A stretch of 64,000 nt of DNA from Pedinophyceae sp. YPF-701 (lineage: Eukaryota > Chlorophyta > Pedinophyceae), in contig CAJZHL010000029.1 of NCBI GenBank assembly GCA_916048055.1, positions 171,001 to 235,000 of the forward strand, given 5' to 3'. This document shows positions 16,359-31,616 of the stretch, one piece after another. How positions within the stretch are numbered: position 1 is the stretch's first letter; every line of letters starts with the position of its first letter. The notes beneath the pieces were generated by a model, which saw nothing but the letters and a program-made list of their open reading frames with translations, searched no databases and was not told the origin of the DNA. The position numbers were made by a program, and so were the translations under genes.

Positions 16359-18621
16359 ATGCACGCCGCCGCCTTCTCCATGAGCGCTGCGCCCGCGCGC
16401 AACGTCGCCGCGGGCGCCACGGGCGTCAAGCGCAACGCAAACTTCGGCAAGCTGCAAGCTGGCTACCTGTTCCCAGAGATCGCCCGGCGCAGGTACGGCC
16501 GGCGCACAGGACCCCGATCCGCGCGCGTGCGCCCTGGGAGCTCCTGCCGCGGCCCCGCGGTGCATTTTCCGCCAAATAGCGCGCCGTGTGGCGTGCGTGC
16601 GACGCGAGGGAGCTCGCGTGGTCTGAGACCGCGCTCCGGGGCTTTCGCGGCGGCGTGCGCGTTGCCAGGCGGCTGAGCGGCTACATCGGCTGCTTGCGAG
16701 CGCGCTGCGCGGCGAAATCGAATCGATGCGGCGGAAGAGGCGGCGTGTTCGCGGTCCAGCTGTTGCCTGGCTTGCATAGCAGGGCGGCGCGGGGGCTTCG
16801 TGACGCCCTGCTGCGCCCGCGCGCCCCCGTTGCCGCGCCCGTCGATGGGCGCGGTCAAGGAGGCCCGGGAGGCGGCCGTGCCGCGGCCCAGCGGCGCGGG
16901 ACAGTCGTGGCGCGCTGCATGCAGCACGCGGCGCACGGTGGCGTGTCATGGCGGCCGGCCGTGCGCGTGTTCCGCAGGAACGAGCACATGGAGCAGAACC
17001 CCGACGCGAAGATCATCTCCCTCGGCATCGGCGACACCACCGAGCCCATCCCCGGCCCCATCGTCGACGTAATACCCCCCCCCTCCTTTTCTCAAACACC
17101 GCCCTCCTCCCTCATCCCCCCCCCGCGCCCCACCGCCCACCCACGAGTGCCCGCCCGCCCGCGTCCTCCGCGCAGGGCCTCTCGAACGCCGCGAAGGGCC
17201 TCGGCACGCGCGAGGGCTACTCGGGCTACGGCATCGAGCAGGGCCGCCCCGAGATCCGCGAGGCGATCGCGAGCCGCATCTACGAGGGCATGCGCAAGCC
17301 GACGGAGATCTTCGTGTCGGACGGCTCGAAGTGCGACATCGGGCGCCTCCAGATGATGTTTGGCCCCGGCCACAAGGCGGCTGTGCAGGACCCTGCGTAC
17401 CCCGTGTACGTCGACACTTCGGTGATGTTCGGGAACACGGGGGACTACAACGGCGCGGGCTTCGACGGCATCGTGTACATGGACTGCACGCCGGAGAACG
17501 ACTTCTTCCCGGACCTGGCGGGCGCCGAGGACGTGAGTGCTCGTGGCTCGATTGCTTGTTTGCTTGCTCGTTTGCTGGCTTGCTGATTTGCTTGGTTGCT
17601 TGGTTGCATGTTTGTTTGTTTGTTTGTTTGTTTGTTTGTTTGTTTGTTTGTTTGTTTGTTTGTTTGTTTGTTTGTTTGTTTGTTTGTTTGTTTGTTTGTT
17701 TGCTTGGTTGCTGGTTTGCTTGGTTGCTGGTTTGCTTGTCTGCAAACTGTTTCGTGGACCACAGGCAACTGTCCTGTTCGTTGCAGCACGATGCCCTGTT
17801 CTTGAATCGTCGCCGCTGTCGTGTTGAGTGCTTTCCTCGACGGGAGTGCGTCCCCGTCGCTGCGCTCCTCGCCGCGCGTGCCAACCCCCCCGCTTCCCCA
17901 CCCGCCCCCGCAGGCGGACCTCATCTTCTTCTGCTCGCCGAACAACCCCACGGGCGCGGCCGCCACGCGCGAGCAGCTCACGCGCCTCGTCGACTTCGCC
18001 AAGGCCAACGGCAGCATCATCATCTACGACGCCGCCTACGCGCTCTACATCGACAACCCCGAGTGCCCCAAGTCCATCTACGAGATCCCCGGCGCCGAGG
18101 AGGTCGCGATCGAGACGTGCTCCTTCTCCAAGTACGCCGGCTTCACCGGCGTTCGCCTCGGTTGGACCGTCGTGCCGGAGGCGCTCAAGTTCGCCGACGG
18201 CACGCCCGTGCAGCAGGACTGGACGCGCGTCATGACGACGATGTTCAACGGCGCGTCGAACGTCGTGCAGGCCGGCGGGCTCGCCGCGCTGTCGGACGAC
18301 GGCTGGGCGGAGGTCCTCAGCATGGTGGCGTTTTACAAGGAGAACGCCAAACTGCTGCGCCAGGCGTTCCTGGACATGGGCTTCGAGGTGTACGGCGGGA
18401 CGGACGCGCCGTACGTCTGGGTGCGGTTCCCCGGCATGAAGTCGTGGGACACGTTCCAGGACATTCTGTCGAAGTGCAACATCGTGGTGACGCCCGGGTC
18501 CGGGTTCGGGAACGCCGGGGAGGGCTTCGTGCGCGCGTCCGCGTTCGGGCACCGCGAGAACGTGCTCGAGGCGATCGACCGGCTCAAGGCGGTGTACTCG
18601 AAGACGCCTGCTGCGGCGTAA
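16359..18621 (+). CDS. dapL: LL-diaminopimelate aminotransferase, plastid-type
   Basis: Four exons, 16359-16492, 16978-17068, 17176-17532 and 17914-18621, all in phase, encode 429 aa. The family is unmistakable: [90 protein letters not shown] (the Lys binds PLP), [12 protein letters not shown] and [20 protein letters not shown]. The enzyme (EC 2.6.1.83) makes LL-2,6-diaminopimelate from tetrahydrodipicolinate with glutamate as amino donor, the plant/algal route to lysine. The first about 40 residues ([19 protein letters not shown]) look like a chloroplast transit peptide. Intron 2 has donor GTAATACC; intron 3 (381 bp) holds a long (TTTG)n microsatellite. Confidence 0.96.
17610..17701 (+). repeat. 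(TTTG)n microsatellite in dapL intron 3
   Basis: About 23 uninterrupted TTTG units, flanked for 50 bp each side by degenerate TTGC/TTGG versions. It lies entirely in intron 3 of dapL and gives spurious Cys/Leu/Phe/Val open frames in all plus-strand frames. Confidence 0.95.
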
Positions 18622-22792: not shown

Positions 22793-24649
22793 CTACTGCA
22801 CCGTGACGCGCCGCACGTCCACCCCCAGCGCCGCGAGCTTCGCGTCGAGCCGCTCGTACCCGCGGTCGATGTGCTCGACGCCCCCGACCAGCGTCTCGCC
22901 CTCCGCCGCCATCCCCGCGATCACCAGCCCCGCGCCGGCCCTCAGGTCCCCCGCGGCAACACACCCCCCCCTCAGCCGCGCCCCGCCCGCGATCCGCGCC
23001 ACGCCCTCCGCCTCCACCGCGATCTCCGCGCCCATCCGCACCAGCTCCGCCGCGTGCCGCATCCGCGCCTCGAACACCGTCTCACGCAGCACCGACGGCG
23101 ACCCCGCCAGCGCCATCAACGCCATCACCTGGGGCTGCATGTCCGTCGGGAACCCAGGGAACGGCCCCGTGTCGATCTCGACGCCGCGCAGCCGCGCAGG
23201 GTCCCGCGGGCACCGGATCCCCACGACCGACTCCCCCCGCATGGCCACAATACACCCCATGCGCTCCAACGCGTCCGTCAACGGCCGGATGTGGCCGCGG
23301 ACGACGGGCGAGACGTCCAGGCGCGGCGAGCCCGTCGCGGCCGCGGCGACGAGGAACGTCCCGGCCTCGATGCGGTCCGGGATGATGCGCAGCTCCGCGG
23401 AAGAGAGCCCGCGGTGCGCGTCGGTGGTGGGCCCGCCCGCGACGCCGTCCACGGTGACCGTGCGCGTGCCCGCGCCGGCCACGCGCGCGCCCATCGCGGT
23501 CAGCAGCCGCGCGAGGTCCTCGATCTCGGGCTCCCGCGCCGCGTTCGCGATCACCGTCGTTCCGCGCGCCGCCGCCGCCGCCATCATTGTCGTCTCCGTG
23601 GCGCCGACGGACGGGTACCGCAGCGCGACGCGCGCGCCGCGGAGGCCGCCGGCGGGCAGCCGCGCGCGGACCTCGCGGCCCACGAGGTCCACGTCGACGT
23701 GCGCGCCGAGAGCGCGCAGGGAGGCGACGTGGAGGTCGACAGGCCGCGACCCGATGTCGCAGCCGCCGGGGAGCGGCACGCGCGCTTCGCCGAGGCGCGC
23801 GAGGAGCGGCCCGATGACGAGGAACGACGCGCGGAGGCGCGCGGCTTCGTGCGCGGGCGGCGCGGCGGACGCGAGAGCCGTGGCGTCGACAGAGAGGCAG
23901 CCGCTGGCTGTGGGGGACCGCGCCGGGGCGTACGAGGCCCGCGCGCCGAGGCTGCGGAGGATGCGCGCCATGACCTCGACGTCCGCGAGGTTCGGGACGT
24001 TGTGGAGGTCGACGGGCCCGCGCGCGAGGAGCGCAGCTGCCATGAGAGCCAGCGCCGAGTTTTTCGCCCCGGAAATCGTCGCGTGGCCCGCGAGGGGCCG
24101 TCCGCCGCGGACCTGCGCATGGTGGGGAGGTGGGGGAGCCGGGACGGTCGGGTTCGGGGCGCGAGGCGCGCGGGGCGAGCCGCACGCGCCGTGCTCCTGC
24201 TGGCGATGCATCATGTTCGGTGTTGTGGCGGGTGCGGTGGCGAGCGGGGGGGTCGCGCGGGGGGCGGGGCGGGCGGAGGGGCATGGAGACGGGCGGTGCG
24301 ACGCGGGGGGGCCGTCGGGCGGGAACGGGGCGGAGTAGCGGCGGCGGGGGAGCGGTTGGTTTTGGTTCCAGGAGGCGCGCACCTGGAGGAGCTGTCGTGG
24401 TTCAGGCCCGGCTGCGGCCGCGTCGGCGGGGTCGAGGCCGAGGAGAACGGGCTGCGCGCCGTGGTTTTCGTGGAAGAGCACGCGGCGGGCGCTGGGCCCG
24501 CGCCTGGCCGCACGCGCGCGGCGTGGCGGGGCGCGCGCTGCTGTCGAGGAGAGCGGGCGGCGCGTACCGGCCGCGCAGCGCGGCGCACAGCCGCCGGACG
24601 CGCGGGTCCGCGCCGCAGGCGCGGCCCCTGACGCAGCCCGGCCAGCCAT
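22793..24649 (-). CDS. murA: UDP-N-acetylglucosamine 1-carboxyvinyltransferase (MurA), plastid-targeted
   Basis: Exon 1, 24649-24383, and exon 2, 24112-22793, join in phase 0 over a 270-bp intron whose acceptor follows CCCCACCTCCCCACC; product 528 aa. The catalytic domain is complete: RPLAGHATISGAKNSAL (active-site Lys and Asn), RASFLVIGPLLARLG, LPGGCDIGSRPVDLH with the PEP-binding Cys (codon near 23760), SVGATETTMMAAA, EPEIEDLARLLTAMGA, IPDRIEAGTFL (catalytic Asp), GPFPGFPTDMQ, and DLRAGAGLVIAG, ending HIDRGYERLDAKLAALG. MurA performs the first committed step of peptidoglycan synthesis, transferring enolpyruvate from PEP to UDP-GlcNAc. Exon 1 encodes an Ala/Arg/Ser/Pro-rich leader of about 90 residues typical of a chloroplast transit peptide. 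Intron and leader argue against bacterial contamination. Confidence 0.95.
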   Translation of the reverse strand: MAGRAASGAAPAARTRASGGCAPRCAAGTRRPLSSTAARAPPRRARAARRGPSARRVLFHENHGAQPVLLGLDPADAAAAGPEPRQLLQVRASWNQNQPLPRRRYSAPFPPDGPPASHRPSPCPSARPAPRATPPLATAPATTPNMMHRQQEHGACGSPRAPRAPNPTVPAPPPPHHAQVRGGRPLAGHATISGAKNSALALMAAALLARGPVDLHNVPNLADVEVMARILRSLGARASYAPARSPTASGCLSVDATALASAAPPAHEAARLRASFLVIGPLLARLGEARVPLPGGCDIGSRPVDLHVASLRALGAHVDVDLVGREVRARLPAGGLRGARVALRYPSVGATETTMMAAAAARGTTVIANAAREPEIEDLARLLTAMGARVAGAGTRTVTVDGVAGGPTTDAHRGLSSAELRIIPDRIEAGTFLVAAAATGSPRLDVSPVVRGHIRPLTDALERMGCIVAMRGESVVGIRCPRDPARLRGVEIDTGPFPGFPTDMQPQVMALMALAGSPSVLRETVFEARMRHAAELVRMGAEIAVEAEGVARIAGGARLRGGCVAAGDLRAGAGLVIAGMAAEGETLVGGVEHIDRGYERLDAKLAALGVDVRRVTVQ

Positions 24650-25240: not shown

Positions 25241-27977
25241 ATGGACCCAGCGGGGATGGCGTCCGACGTCAGGCTGCGGGAGGTCCTCAGAGCGAGGCTT
25301 GGGTACCAGGACTTCCGCGGCCCGCAGCTGGCTGCCGTGCAGGGCGCCCTCCAGGACCGAGATGTGTTCGTTATCGCCCCGACCGGCGGCGGAAAGACGC
25401 TCTGCTACACGATGCCGGCGCTGGCGTCGCACAAGATGGCGCTCGTGGTATCGCCGCTCGTCGCGCTCATGGCCGACCAGGTCCGCAATCTCGCGGCTCG
25501 CGGCGTGGCCGCGGAATACATCTCCTCGACGCGACCGGTCGCGGAGCGCGAGGCGATCCTGCAATCGCTCAAAGGTGCGGCAAACTTCTCCCCGTGCTCA
25601 CGTCAGCCCCGCGCCCCGCCCCGGCACGCTCCCGGCGAACCCCCTCGCTCGCACCGACCGCGAGCGACGCCACAGACCTCACACCCCCGCCGGGCCACCG
25701 CCGACGCTCCACGCGCCCGCCAGCCACCACAACACACATCGCGCTCCCAACGAGATGCACGTTCGGGGCCCAACGCGACGCCCCTGCGCCCCGGCGCGCG
25801 CGCAGACCCGGCCTGCCCGACGAGCCTCCTGTTCGCGGCTCCGGAGGCCCTGGACCACGACGGCCCCCTCCTGCAGGCCCTCCAGGAATACCACACGCAA
25901 CAGGGGCTGTCGCTCCTGGCCGTGGACGAGGCGCACTGCGTCTCGCAGTGGGGCCACGACTTCCGCCCCGCGTACCTCAAGGCGCGCCCCGCGGCCCGCG
26001 CGCGCCCGCAGCGCAACGCAAGCGCGCCACGGACCGTTCCCGCACGCGTACCGTCCGCATCGGCGCGCTGCCCCCGCCGCACCTCGCCCGTGCAGCGGTG
26101 CGCGGTCGAGCGCTCTGTGTCGGTGCGCGGACGGCGCGCGACACCAACAAACAATACTCCCCCCGTGCCGTTGCAGGTGTCGCGGCTGAAGGGGGAGTTC
26201 CCGGGCGTGCCGATGATGGCGCTGACGGCCACGGCGACGGAGCGCGTCCGCCAGGACGTCACGACGCACCTCGGCCTGACGCGCCCCCTCGTCGTGCGCG
26301 CGCCCTTCGACCGGCCCAATATCCGATACTCTGTCGTCTACGCGGACGATCTGGGCCCCGACGGCGCCGTTCCGGAGCTCGTCAAGCGCCTGGACCGCTT
26401 CCGCACCACCCCGCAGGCCGCCGCGGCCGCCGCCGACGCGTCGCAGGCCGCCGCAGCGCCGCCAACGGCCGACGCGGGTCCGTCGGGCGCTGCGGCCCCG
26501 CCTGGCGGGGCGGCGATTGTGTATGTGCGGCAGAGGCTGCGCACCGAGGAGATCGCGGCGGAGCTGCGGCTGTTCGGCGTGCCCGCCGCGGCGTACCACG
26601 CGGGCCTGCGCGACGGCGAGCGCGCGGCGACGCAGGCGCGGTGGATGGCGGGCGAGGTGCCGGTGATCGTCGCCACGGTTGCGTTCGGGATGGGGATCGA
26701 CAAGCCGGACGTGAGGATCGTGGTGCACATGACGGTGCCGCCGTCGGTGGAGGCGCTCTATCAGGAGGGCGGGAGGGCGGGGCGCGACGGGGCGCCGGCG
26801 GAGCACGTCGTGTTCTACGACTCGGAGGACGCGCAGCGGTGGCAGTACATCATATCCGTCGAAGAGAGGAAGAGGAAGAACAAGAACAAGGTGCGCTTTC
26901 GTGTGTTTTATGTTTTATATGTGTGCGAACAAGCGTTTGTGCGCCCCCGCGTGGAGGCCCAGGCACAGGGACACCGCGTTGTTGCTGCGCGATGGCTTGA
27001 AGCGCTTGCTCAGCGTCCCACTGCTGCCTCTGCGTGCCGCCCGATGTGGACATCTCCGCGCCCGCCTGTGCACGCGAATGCAGAGCCGCGCCAAGGCCCC
27101 GCACGCAGCCGGGCGCGACCCGGCCACGGCGCTGCAGTCCGTCCTCGACTGGTGCACGCGCGCCTCGGGCTGCCGCCGCGCCGCCCTGCTGGGGTACTTC
27201 GGCGAACACCCCCACGCGCGGCCGCCCGCCGCCCTCGCGCGCTGCTGCGACCTCTGCGCCGACCCCGCCGGCACCCGCGCCCGCGCTCTCGCCAGCTCCC
27301 TCCACCGCGCCCCCCGCGGCGCGGACAGGATCCGCGTCGCGCGCAGCCCCGCGCGGCGCCGCCGCGGCGACGACTCCGGCTCCTCCGACGACGACAACGT
27401 CCGCCACCGCGTCGACCCGCCCGGCGTCAGGACAGCCGCGCCGGCCGACGACGAGCCCGTCCTGGACTTCGCGGGCGCGAAACGCGCGGCGAAGGGCGAC
27501 CCAATGGTGATGCTTGATATTCTCATAGAACAGGAGAGGGCGTTCGAGCAGCGCCGGCCGCCGCCGCCGGACGCGAGCAAGCTCAGCGGGCGCGAGCGGA
27601 TGCGCGCGATCCTGCACGGGAAGCTCCGGAAGGGGCCGAGCGGGGCGCCGGCGGAGGCGACGGCGCGCGCGGGGGGCGACGGGGAGCGGGAGCGGGGGAT
27701 TGCGCGGGCGCTGTGCGGGGCGTGGGCGCGGGTGCAGATGAAGCTGGCGGGCGGGGCGGTGGAGGAGGCGGTGGGGGAGCTGAGCGCGATGGCGGGCGCG
27801 GAGTTGTCGGTGGCGGTGCTGCAGGCCGACGGGCTGGCGGGGGGGGTGTCGCGGGGGGTGAAAGGGCTGCGGAGCCACGCGGACGGGCGCGTCGCGGAGG
27901 CGGCGACGCGGGTGGTTCGGGAGTGGCGAGCGCGGCTGCTGGAGCTGGCCAGGAAGAAGCCAGGAGGGGGGAGTTAG
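25241..27977 (+). CDS. RecQ-family DNA helicase
   Basis: Exons 25241-25574, 25806-25981, 26177-26890 and 27084-27977 give 705 aa. In order: LGYQDFRGPQLAAV (motif 0), APTGGGKTLCY (Walker A), VSPLVALMADQV (Ia), VDEAHCVSQWGHDFRP (DEAH plus the RecQ loop), MMALTATAT (III), IVYVRQRLRTEEIA (IV), VATVAFGMGIDKPDVR (V), GGRAGRDG (VI), then after the last intron ALQSVLDWC...CRRAALLGYFGE...CCDLC, the RecQ four-Cys zinc site. Expected role is ATP-dependent 3'-5' unwinding in recombination and fork repair. The C-terminal about 230 residues are charged/helical and not recognised; no HRDC seen. Intron 2 needs a GC donor (AAG|GCGCGC) to keep YLK joined to the VSRLKGEFPGVP segment. Confidence 0.93.
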
Positions 27978-29280
27978 AGGGTGGAGCGGGGGAGTGATGC
28001 GTGCGTGGCCTGCGGGCCCGGGGAGGGCGCGTGCGGCGAGGGCGCGTCGCTGCAGCGCGTGTGTACATACGACAGTCGGCGCGGGTCTCGTGTGAACGGG
28101 AGACGACGTGCGTCGCCGCTCGCTTCGTCGTCAGAGTCCGACAATGGCCACTCGTCGTCCTCTTCGCGCAGGAGGAGCAGTGCAAGCAGGCCGACTTCTG
28201 GACCTTCGTAAACAAGTACAAGACGAGTGTGGCGGTCTGTGCGCCCGCGGACGCGTGGGCACGAGAGGAGACGGAGAAGTGCGCCGATAAGGAGGGCGCG
28301 GAGAAGCAGGGCCAACTCGCGAAGATCGAGGTGGCGGCGCGCAAAGCCATCCTGTATTTCTTGTACGGGTACGACAACGACACACTTCTTGACGCTACTC
28401 TGATGAGCTGCCTGACATTGCACCCTCGGACACGTCGCCGAGGATGTCGCGAGACAGAGACACTTGATGCGCCCCCTCGCGATGTCAGACGCGCACCTGC
28501 GCGGGTGGTGGGGACGGGTGTCTCGCGACATCCTCGGCGACGTGTCCGAGGGTGCAATGTCAGGCAGCTCATCAGAGTAGCGTCAAGAAGTGTGTCGTTG
28601 TCGTACCCGTACAAGAAATACAGGATGGCTTTGCGCGCCGCCACCTCGATCTTCGCGAGTTGGCCCTGCTTCTCCGCGTGCACACCGCGCCTGCTACAGC
28701 GCCCTCCATATCGGCGCACTTCTCCGTCTCCTCTCGTGCCCACGCGTCCGCGGGCGCACAGACCGCCACACTCGTCTTGTACTTGTTTACGAAGGTCCAG
28801 AAGTCGGCCTGCTTGCACTGCTCCTCCTGTGCGAAGAGTTGCCACATGGCCGATCGATCTCGCGAGTTGTGCTCTGTATGCTCTCAGAGGCACGGCGGCG
28901 GCGACACGGCTCCCCGGGGTCGCGCGTGCGCCGCGCGCAGGCCCGGCGCGGCGCCGCCGCGCCTGCAGCCGGCAACGTCGCCTCGCGCGCCGCACGTGGG
29001 GGGGGGGGAGTCGTGCTTGTTGAGAGGCCAGGAGACCCCCACGCTCCGCGCGCGCGCTTACGGGCCACGGCTGGCGTGTGTGCGGCGCAGAGACGGACGC
29101 CCGGCATCTGTAGGCGCCGCGCACAGCACGCAGCCCCCCACAGCGCCCACCGCCCGCCCGTTCGCGGCCTAGGTTGGTTGCACACCTCACATTGACGTAG
29201 GAGGTTCCGTGCGAGGTGGAAACTTCGCGAATCTCCGCCGGAGCGCGACGGTCTTGCGTGTCGCACGCGCGAGGCCCGCC
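27978..29280. other. Intergenic region carrying a fold-back element
   Basis: 1.3 kb between the RecQ stop and the ankyrin gene start on the same strand. Its centre is the large inverted repeat described separately; outside it I see no supported gene. Confidence 0.5.
28160..28838. repeat. Fold-back element: about 300-bp inverted repeat with coding-like arms
   Basis: The left arm, 28160-28456, and right arm, 28519-28838, are near-identical in opposite orientation with a 62-bp spacer. The right arm has a 20-bp insertion at about 28679-28698. Read outside-in, each arm opens a frame beginning FAQEEQCKQADFWTFVNKYK; the left continues uninterrupted (LAKIEVAARKAILYFLYGYD), while the right begins with an in-frame ATG (MWQLFAQ) but is frameshifted at the insertion. 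So a piece of a coding sequence appears duplicated head-to-head. It could be a non-autonomous fold-back transposon, an inverted gene-fragment duplication, or a hairpin small-RNA locus. The encoded fragment belongs to no family I recognise. Confidence 0.88.
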
Positions 29281-31616
29281 ATGGACGGCGTCCGCGTGCG
29301 CCAGTGCGCGGGCGCACCGGCCGTGTTGCGCCAGGCCACGCCTCCGATGCGCCGCGGCGCGCTCCCGCCGCCGCTCTGCACGGCCCGAGCGCCTCCGCCG
29401 GTCGTGCACACCGATGCAGACGCGTGCGCGGAGCGCCCGGCGAAGAGGGCGTCCGTGGCGACGCACGCGCGCCCGCGCCGGCGGAAGTACCGTCATGCGG
29501 CGCACAGCAGCAGCGCGAAGGCGCGCGAGGGGCAGACGCACGCGCCCGGCGACCGGCGGCGCGGGTTGGCGGATCAAAGGGCCGTCGATCCGGCGCTCTT
29601 CGGCTACCAGCGGCAGTTCGTGGACGCTGTGTCGCGCGATGTTGACGCGCCGGACCACAACGGCAACACCCCGCTGGTACGGGGCCCGCTCGCCGCGCCC
29701 ACGCCGTTTCCCTGTCCGGTAGATGGCAGACTGCACGCACGCGCGGCGCGACGCGGCTGGCACGCCCGGAAACGCGCGCGCCGGGCCCCTGTCTCCCTGC
29801 CCCCTCAGCACCTCGCACGCGGCCCCACGGCGCGATGCAGATGCGCGCGGTCCTCGCCGGCGACCGGGGGCTCGTCAAGGAGCTCCTCGAGCACCACGGC
29901 GTGCTCGTGAACGGCAAGCAGCCCGAGGGCTGGCCCAAGGCAAGCCCACCTCTCCCGCATCCTACCACCCCGCCTCTTGCTCCCCATTTCCGGCACGACA
30001 CCGCGCCGGCGCCGTCGCGGCCCGCCGATCCGCGCGCCTCTCCCCCGCGCCCGCCCCCGCACGGGCCCTTCGCGCCAGTCGACCCCTCCTCGGCCCGCCA
30101 CGACTCTTCGTATCTCGACTCCACGCCGCGCACCAACTCACGTCTCCGCGCCCGCGCCGGTTCCCCGCAGCACTGGGAGGCGCGGCGCACGACCGCGCTG
30201 CACATGGCCATCCTCATGCGCTCCGTCGACCTCACGCAGCTCCTCCTCCAGCACGGAGCCAATCCGAATGGCAAAGACGCACACTCCGTCCCGCCCATCA
30301 TGTATCTCTATCCCTGGGGGGAAGCATCCAGCGGCGGCGCCGGCCCGTCGAGCGGATACGCCTTCTCGACCAACGGGCCGCCTCCCGCGAGCGCCACGCC
30401 GCCGCCGGAGCGCCCCGCGCCCCTGTCGTCGCCCGCCGAGTCCCACGCGCTCGCGCACCTCGCGGAGGTCACCGCGCGGCGCTGGGGCGCGGCGTCCGCG
30501 GACGCCGCGCCGCACAGCCTCGAGGACGAGATGTACCGCACCGTGAGCGACCCGCTCGGCGCGTACGGCGAGCTTCTCGGCGAAATGGACCTCGTGGAGG
30601 CGACTGTGGTGCGGCAGCGCGAGGCGATCCTCGCGGCGCTGCTGCAGAGCGGCGCGAAGGCGCGCGGGATGGGCTGGACCGGCGGCACGCAGCCGCTGGT
30701 CTGGGCGGCCTCGCGCGCGCTCACGGGCGAGGTGGCGCTGCTCCTCGGCGCGGGCTGCGGACCGAACGCGCGCGACGCGGAGCTGCAGACGCCGCTGCAC
30801 ATCGCGTGCCGGCAGGCGAACGTCCCGCTCGCGATGCTGCTGATCGAGCACGGCGCGGAGATCGAGACGGAGGACGCGGGGCGGCGGACGCCGCTGCACT
30901 ATGCGGCGGCACACGCGCCGCCCGGGGTCGTCGCGGCGCTGCTGAGCCACGGCGCGCACCCGGCGCGGCGCGACGCGCAGGGCCGCACGCCGCTCGAGCT
31001 CGCGCTATCGGTCGGCGCCTGTCCGGAACGGACGGTGGAGTTGTTGCTACGCGCCGGCAGCGCGACGCGCGGGTCCGGCGGGCTGCTGGTCGCGGCGCTG
31101 CGGAGCGGGCGCGCGGACCTCGCGCGCATGCTGCTCACGGCGGGCGTCGCCGCGACGGGCCGCGCGGGCGCCGCTGCGCTGGCACTTGCGTGTGCGAGCG
31201 GCGACGCGGATGTCGTGCGCGAGCTGGTCGCGGCGGGCGCGGACCCGGCCGAGCCGGGTCCGGACGGCGTGAGCGCGCTCGAGGACGCGGCGTTCCGCCT
31301 CGAGCAGGCCCGGCGCGCGGGAACGCCTGCTGAGAGCGTCGCGGCGGCTGCGCGGCCGTGGGAGGTGCCGGCGGCGCGTGCGGGGGCGTCGCGGGCGGAG
31401 CGCGAGCACGCGGAGCACGTGCGGCGGCTGGAGGGCGTCGTGGAGGTGCTCGAGGCGAACAGGGGGCTCGTCGGCGGCCCCGTGCACCCGGAGCTGACGG
31501 ACGACATGAGGGTGGGGGGGGTGCGTGCGGAGGGGTACCGGCGCGCGCTGCTGGAGCACGACCACAGCGAGGCGGGCGTGCGCACGTTCTACCCCGACGA
31601 CCCGTGGGACGGATGA
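29281..31616 (+). CDS. Ankyrin-repeat protein
   Basis: Exons 29281-29676, 29841-29939 and 30171-31616 (phase 0 throughout) give 646 aa. The first splice joins VDAPDHNGNTPL to MRAVLAGDRGLVKELLEHHG, restoring one ankyrin unit exactly. Further units: TTALHMAILMRSVDLTQLLLQHGANPNGKD, TPLHIACRQANVPLAMLLIEHGAEIETED, TPLHYAAAHAPPGVVAALLSHGAHPARRD, TPLELALSVG and degenerate ones to about residue 510. Between the second and third units lies a 110-residue Pro/Ser/Ala insertion. The C-terminal 100 residues are helical, ending GVRTFYPDDPWDG. The N-terminal 100 residues are basic and disordered. The second intron uses donor AAG|GCAAGC, a classical GC-AG type. Role is protein binding; partner unknown. Confidence 0.88.

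Follow-up and report, generated by a model that had tools for sequence, protein, structure and literature searches.

A MurA gene in the nuclear genome of a green alga raises the question of whether the chloroplast of that alga still makes peptidoglycan. The gene considered here was described in an earlier note on a 64,000-nucleotide stretch of DNA from Pedinophyceae sp. YPF-701 (hereafter the window), which is part of a contig of 1.03 Mb (C29) in an assembly of 27.9 Mb and 32 contigs. The reading favored here, to which a probability of roughly 0.8 is assigned, is that this is a nuclear murA whose product, once imported, would start a plastid peptidoglycan pathway that serves division. The proposed function is modelled on the moss system and, for this alga, is read from genes alone. 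MurA imported into the plastid would move enolpyruvate from PEP to UDP-GlcNAc, yielding UDP-GlcNAc-enolpyruvate, and MurB to MurF would then build the UDP-MurNAc peptide, whose third residue would be meso-diaminopimelate. Lipid II would be made by MraY and MurG and flipped by MurJ, a class A PBP would polymerise and cross-link the wall between the two envelope membranes, and this plastid wall would serve plastid division. We infer that the transcript is spliced, that the protein is imported and active, and that the polymer exists and takes part in division. The features on which the analysis rests are collected in Table 1.

Table 1. Positions of the MurA gene, its neighbors, the other predicted pathway genes and selected further loci. 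Window positions count from the first letter of the window; other positions are those of the contig named.
Feature	Location	Strand	Remarks
dapL, plant-type LL-diaminopimelate aminotransferase	window, about 17167-18621	plus	intron by eye at ~17533-17913; neighbor, not in the MurA system
MurA exon 2	window 22793..24112	minus	whole catalytic domain, one uninterrupted frame, ends in TAG
MurA probable spliceosomal intron	window 24113..24382	minus	270 nt, GTGCGC...GCGCAG (GT-AG), phase 0, no in-frame stop
MurA exon 1 (inferred)	window 24383..24649	minus	ATG, Ala/Arg-rich leader, then ...RVLFHENHGAQPVLLGLDPADAAAAGPEPRQLLQ, which joins the first conserved MurA strand
RecQ-type helicase	window 25241..27977	plus	pieces (DEAD, Helicase_C, RecQ_Zn_bind) lie in different frames, with introns by eye; divergent neighbor
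Inverted repeat	window 28160-28838		arms 28297-28456/28519-28678 (160 nt, 100%) and 28160-28299/28699-28838 (140 nt, 99%)
Ankyrin-repeat protein frame	window 29835-31616	plus	593 aa
EPSP synthase	C29:909827-911901		in pieces; one piece aroA, 234.5 bits
MurB	C30:867741		NCBIfam and motif check
MurC	C28:1396889		NCBIfam and motif check
MurD	C30:780374		247 bits, above the NCBIfam cut-off
MurE	C3:559374		DNPR, GDRDRSKR and DHLDYHG motifs
MurF	C3:386224		NCBIfam and motif check
MurG	C19:942795		NCBIfam
MraY	C28:2290943		NCBIfam
MurJ	C8:274518		Pfam profile positions 2-433 matched at 135.7 bits, nearly the whole profile, in one frame
Class A PBP	C31:1567069		glycosyltransferase part (EDRRF, GGSTITQQ) and transpeptidase part (KTGTS)
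Pyruvate carboxylase (L012)	C3:58175-58639	minus	match to a DDL profile, ruled out
ATP-grasp protein (L040)	C3:1154539-1154754	minus	704-residue frame; not classed as DDL

Identification of the MurA gene

The earlier note placed MurA at 22793..24649, and this placement held. The gene is on the minus strand, with its stop codon at 22793-22795 and a likely start ATG at 24649. A profile search of the genome's contigs showed that the MurA domain (PF00275) covers 24112-22838 in a single frame with no stop (E 2e-84), and the protein passed the murA cut-off of NCBIfam (TIGR01072, 445.3 bits against a cut-off of 392.7), while the aroA model scored 58.5 bits on the same protein. When compared with the PDB, the protein matched MurAs at 258-338 bits, a NikO protein at 134 bits and EPSP synthases at 41 bits or less. 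The active-site set that had been called complete was found in full, namely SGAKN, PGGC (in PGGCDIGSRP, with the active-site Cys), PDRIEAGTF (overlapping IIPDRIEAGT) and DLRA (in DLRAG), with HIDRGY in addition. The active-site residues are the Lys in SGAKN, the Cys in PGGC, the Asp in PDRIEAGT and the Arg residues in DLRA and HIDRGY. Alignment to 80 bacterial MurAs, all of which were retained, gave 70 columns with at least 95% identity among the bacterial sequences, and the algal protein matches every one of these 70. This is far beyond chance and argues that the enzyme is under selection. At the level of sequence, the window gene is thus confirmed as a true MurA of the nuclear genome of a green alga, and its product is a real, ordinary MurA of the plastid type that is probably functional.

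Structure of the gene and its leader

The reading frame that ends at 22793 stays open to at least 25117, and the absence of an in-frame stop from the intron means that an unspliced reading of the MurA frame is open as well. The gene could accordingly be a single exon that begins at MMHRQQ (about 24213), with neither the intron nor the modelled leader, and its catalytic domain can be read without an intron. The codon bias of exon 1 as a whole is also only weak: its codon-position GC is 0.84/0.76/0.81, without the marked third-position preference seen in exon 2 (0.78/0.57/0.95), and its first half (24607-24518, 0.73/0.97/0.83) is not coding-like. Several observations nevertheless make the single exon unlikely and favor splicing. 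Codon-position GC is coding-like just upstream of the intron, in the second half of exon 1 (24517-24428, 0.87/0.57/0.90), and not coding-like over most of the intron (0.73/0.87/0.93 at 24337-24248). The splice join restores a hydrophobic strand residue, giving Leu where the unspliced reading gives Ala, at a site occupied by I, L, V, F or M in 71 of the 77 non-gapped bacterial rows; the alignment positions next to the join favor neither reading. The splice sites are similar, by eye, to those of the neighboring RecQ and dapL genes and of MurE. MurA is therefore likely spliced from two exons, with the intron at 24382..24113, and the spliced model (24649-24383 joined to 24112-22793) encodes 528 amino acids.

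The gene had been described as spliced, with a transit-peptide-like exon. The first part stood insofar as there is a probable GT-AG intron of 270 nt near the 5' end, although the catalytic domain itself is unspliced and lies in one open frame. The second part was plausible but overstated. None of the first 56 residues of the leader is acidic, and the leader is a plausible, putative plastid transit peptide; the window has a GC content of 72.5%, however, which makes an acid-poor leader weak evidence for targeting.

Other peptidoglycan genes in the assembly

The earlier note had allowed for a genome without other Mur genes. Profile searches of the genome's contigs, with identification by NCBIfam models and motif checks, instead recovered nine further pathway genes in the alga's own assembly: MurB, MurC, MurD, MurE, MurF, MurG, MraY, MurJ and a class A PBP. 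With MurA the set comprises 10 genes on seven contigs (C3, C8, C19, C28, C29, C30 and C31). The search that the note had proposed, for murB-G, ddl, mraY and PBP genes, was thus successful for all but ddl. Eight of the 10 genes (all but MurA and MurD) scored under the curated NCBIfam cut-offs as exon pieces, and the best matches of each of these pieces were models of the named enzyme or of its close kin. MurJ, for example, reached 127.6 bits with TIGR01695 against a cut-off of 235.6, with 457 residues of a 723-residue frame tested. The same protein scored 37.1 bits as MATE in NCBIfam, and 134.6 bits as MurJ versus 20.8 as MatE in Pfam. Four further places matched PF03023 more weakly, at 27 bits or less. 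Extra matches to PF04101, in an ALG13-like (L019) and an MGDG-synthase-like protein (L020), and to PF00953, at an ALG7-like place with an internal TGA (L017), were set aside after their translations had been read. The predicted MurB has a Cys in its AGCVFRNP motif (L027:4975), a position at which Ser is usual.

The four best PDB matches of MurE were MurE-like/PAP11 chains (137.6, 110.7, 110.7 and 100.2 bits), which belong to the plastid RNA polymerase of plants, and other MurE chains scored 90.7 bits or less. The earlier note had looked to dapL, 4 kb from MurA, as a supply of diaminopimelate. The position was correct, at a distance of 4.2 kb. DapL in plants is an enzyme of lysine synthesis, and two successive pieces of the gene match TIGR03542, at 126.7 and 327 bits; because it encodes a plant-type aminotransferase of lysine synthesis, its nearness is no evidence for peptidoglycan. 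Better evidence for the use of diaminopimelate is the DNPR motif of MurE (L023:6673), which is given as D,L-DAP-specific in the excerpt available of one study (PMC12681378). By its sequence, the MurE is of the meso-DAP type.

The plastid in question is, on the gene evidence, green, although such a plastid could formally also belong to a secondary alga. Profile searches of the contigs found 24 LHC-matching pieces, and both of the two LHC loci that were fetched encode chlorophyll a/b binding proteins (Pfam). One of these proteins matched PDB chains of chlorophyll a-b binding or LHCII proteins with one LHC unit at up to 431 bits; its top two scores, 561.5 and 437.5 bits, were to chains with several LHC units. 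A search of the assembly with PF00223 (psaA/psaB) returned no photosystem I core gene of the plastid genome.

Search for a D-Ala-D-Ala ligase

Against a full pathway stands the D-Ala-D-Ala ligase, DDL, which was not found in the genome's contigs with PF07478, with TIGR01205 or with the pattern HGxxGEDG, leaving the source of D-Ala-D-Ala unaccounted for. The pattern occurred at six places, none of which encodes a Ddl-like protein when read in the pattern's frame; a control pattern occurred at two. Matches to the DDL profiles were traced to other proteins. A pyruvate carboxylase (L012/L037) was ruled out by its NCBIfam score of 1139.9 bits, and a biotin-carboxylase-like protein (L014/L038) and a carbamoyl-phosphate-synthase-like protein (L013/L039/L041) were rejected by reading of their translations. 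The ATP-grasp protein L040, scored over its whole length, reached 45.8 bits with the D-Ala-D-Ala ligase subfamily against a cut-off of 243; its best NCBIfam matches, all below cut-off, were an argininosuccinate lyase fusion subfamily (111.5 bits), a hypothetical family (75.9 bits) and alanine-anticapsin ligase (54.3 bits). With its weak similarity to amino-acid ligases, this protein would be a possible candidate for a non-canonical dipeptide ligase, should the alga have one.

How much weight the failed searches can bear may be judged from their behavior elsewhere. The TIGR01205 search reported ATP-grasp proteins down to 16 bits, and a long DDL exon should therefore have shown up. A profile search of the same type, on the other hand, picked up just the beginning of the Mur ligase domain in MurC and MurF, whose next exons became visible on reading the loci, so that DDL exons could have been missed too. 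The absence is accordingly treated as a lead and not as a result, which may reflect exons that escaped the searches, a divergent sequence or a gap in the assembly. The apparent lack of DDL is the sole unusual point of this gene set and needs checking; the titles, abstract openings and passages surveyed contain no account of a green alga that has the other pathway genes and lacks DDL.

Loss of DDL might have left only a partial pathway, ending in a lipid-linked precursor or a shortened peptide, with the enzymes serving another plastid role. Flowering plants, which have a reduced set of four genes, have already prompted the suggestion of another role, and three separate searches (PF07478, TIGR01205 and HGxxGEDG) failed to find the ligase. 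However, MurF, whose substrate is D-Ala-D-Ala, and the transpeptidase part of the PBP are both present with their motifs, loss of DDL alone with MurF kept would be odd, and profile searches can miss exons. This outcome is therefore considered improbable. A low probability is likewise given to the proposal that the canonical DDL was lost while MurA-G, MraY, MurJ and the class A PBP were kept, the dipeptide coming from another ATP-grasp ligase or the stem peptide having a different end. Were DDL truly missing, the pathway could run without the canonical D-Ala-D-Ala ligase, and the alga would be a useful natural experiment on the requirements of a plastid wall.

Comparison with other plastid peptidoglycan systems

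The favored reading, an imported MurA at the head of a plastid wall pathway, gains most from comparison with mosses. The moss set, in the excerpts available (PMC12681378, PMC9434261), consists of 11 genes, MurA-G, MurJ, MraY, PBP and DDL, with a MurE that uses meso-DAP; moss knock-outs of Ddl, MurA, MurE, MraY, MurJ or PBP1A result in macrochloroplasts, as excerpted from PMC9434261. Ten of these 11 genes of Physcomitrium patens are also present in the assembly of Pedinophyceae sp. YPF-701, DDL being the exception, and the suggestion that this alga may still build plastid peptidoglycan is thereby supported as probable. Function in P. patens is known from knock-outs, click labelling and precursor analysis, whereas in YPF-701 it is read from gene content. 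By analogy, the chloroplast probably still makes a thin wall of the bacterial type, as has been inferred for related algae and shown for mosses.

Among green algae, the parts available of published surveys report complete pathways in Micromonas pusilla, M. sp. CCMP2099 and class III and VII prasinophytes (PMC4815162), and judge a peptidoglycan layer to be likely in Chloropicon primus and Ulva mutabilis (PMC10784329); in YPF-701, by contrast, DDL was not found. Prasinoderma coloniale, for which excerpts of its genome report (PMC7455551) give 25.3 Mb, 69.8% GC and all ten core peptidoglycan enzymes, is alike in being a small, GC-rich green algal genome with core enzymes of the pathway. It differs in having all ten, whereas DDL was not found in the YPF-701 assembly, and in the pyruvate carboxylase that the same excerpts report as absent there and that is present here. 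In another survey, MurA was found in 3 of 10 chlorophytes (PMC11588093, excerpt), which bears out, for the chlorophytes sampled, the earlier statement that most lack the Mur pathway. With complete sets published for several green algae (PMC4815162 and PMC7455551, as excerpted), the presence of MurA here is less surprising and would not surprise a specialist. With its almost full set of plastid peptidoglycan genes, YPF-701 joins the scattered green algae that have kept them. This set includes the lipid II flippase MurJ, which, to judge from an excerpt of PMC12681378, lay outside the wider surveys of Micromonas and the prasinophytes and of Chloropicon and Ulva.

MurA might alternatively be kept mainly for EPSP synthesis beside the EPSP synthase, with peptidoglycan secondary or absent. 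The MurA of Marchantia makes EPSP and contributes to glyphosate tolerance, and it also serves peptidoglycan (PMC11588093, in the portion available). A separate EPSP synthase is encoded on the same contig as MurA, so a second enzyme of this kind does exist in the alga. The alga has, though, kept most of the enzymes that act after MurA, MurJ and the class A PBP among them, and these would be needless for EPSP synthesis alone; the gap between the murA and aroA scores (445 versus 58 bits) also argues against a main role in EPSP synthesis, which is judged very unlikely.

Origin and genomic surroundings of MurA

The algal MurA is like bacterial MurAs in family and in active-site residues, and it differs in that its gene is nuclear, encodes a leader and probably contains an intron. 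Of 468 relatives taken from a scan of bacterial and archaeal genomes, the best 80 share 37-51% identity with it over the best segment. By title, these best 80 relatives were mostly Bacillota and Actinomycetota (Coriobacteriia), a few being named only "bacterium". The scan used patterns derived from the query, and its cyanobacterium-free titles are therefore no test of a cyanobacterial origin; plant MurA is called cyanobacteria-related in the excerpt of a review (PMC8227023). In the plasmid collection, all 135 of the 135 records had a MurA identity below 60%.

Bacterial contamination or a chimeric contig, for which one could cite the bacterial nature of the MurA family and the lack of any cyanobacterium in the titles of the best 80 of 468 bacterial relatives, has a next to negligible probability given the 1.03-Mb contig, the plant-type dapL and RecQ neighbors with introns, the lack of a bacterial match above 51% (best 80 of 468) or of a plasmid match reaching 60%, and a pathway set that is spread over seven contigs with most of its other genes split into pieces. 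Chimerism of the contig with bacterial DNA is thus unlikely on sequence grounds, and the adjoining intron-bearing helicase gene places MurA among eukaryotic genes. Further along the window, an ankyrin-repeat protein frame was noted, and just downstream of the RecQ gene lies a near-perfect inverted repeat, which is either an element that forms a hairpin or a fold-back artifact of the assembly.
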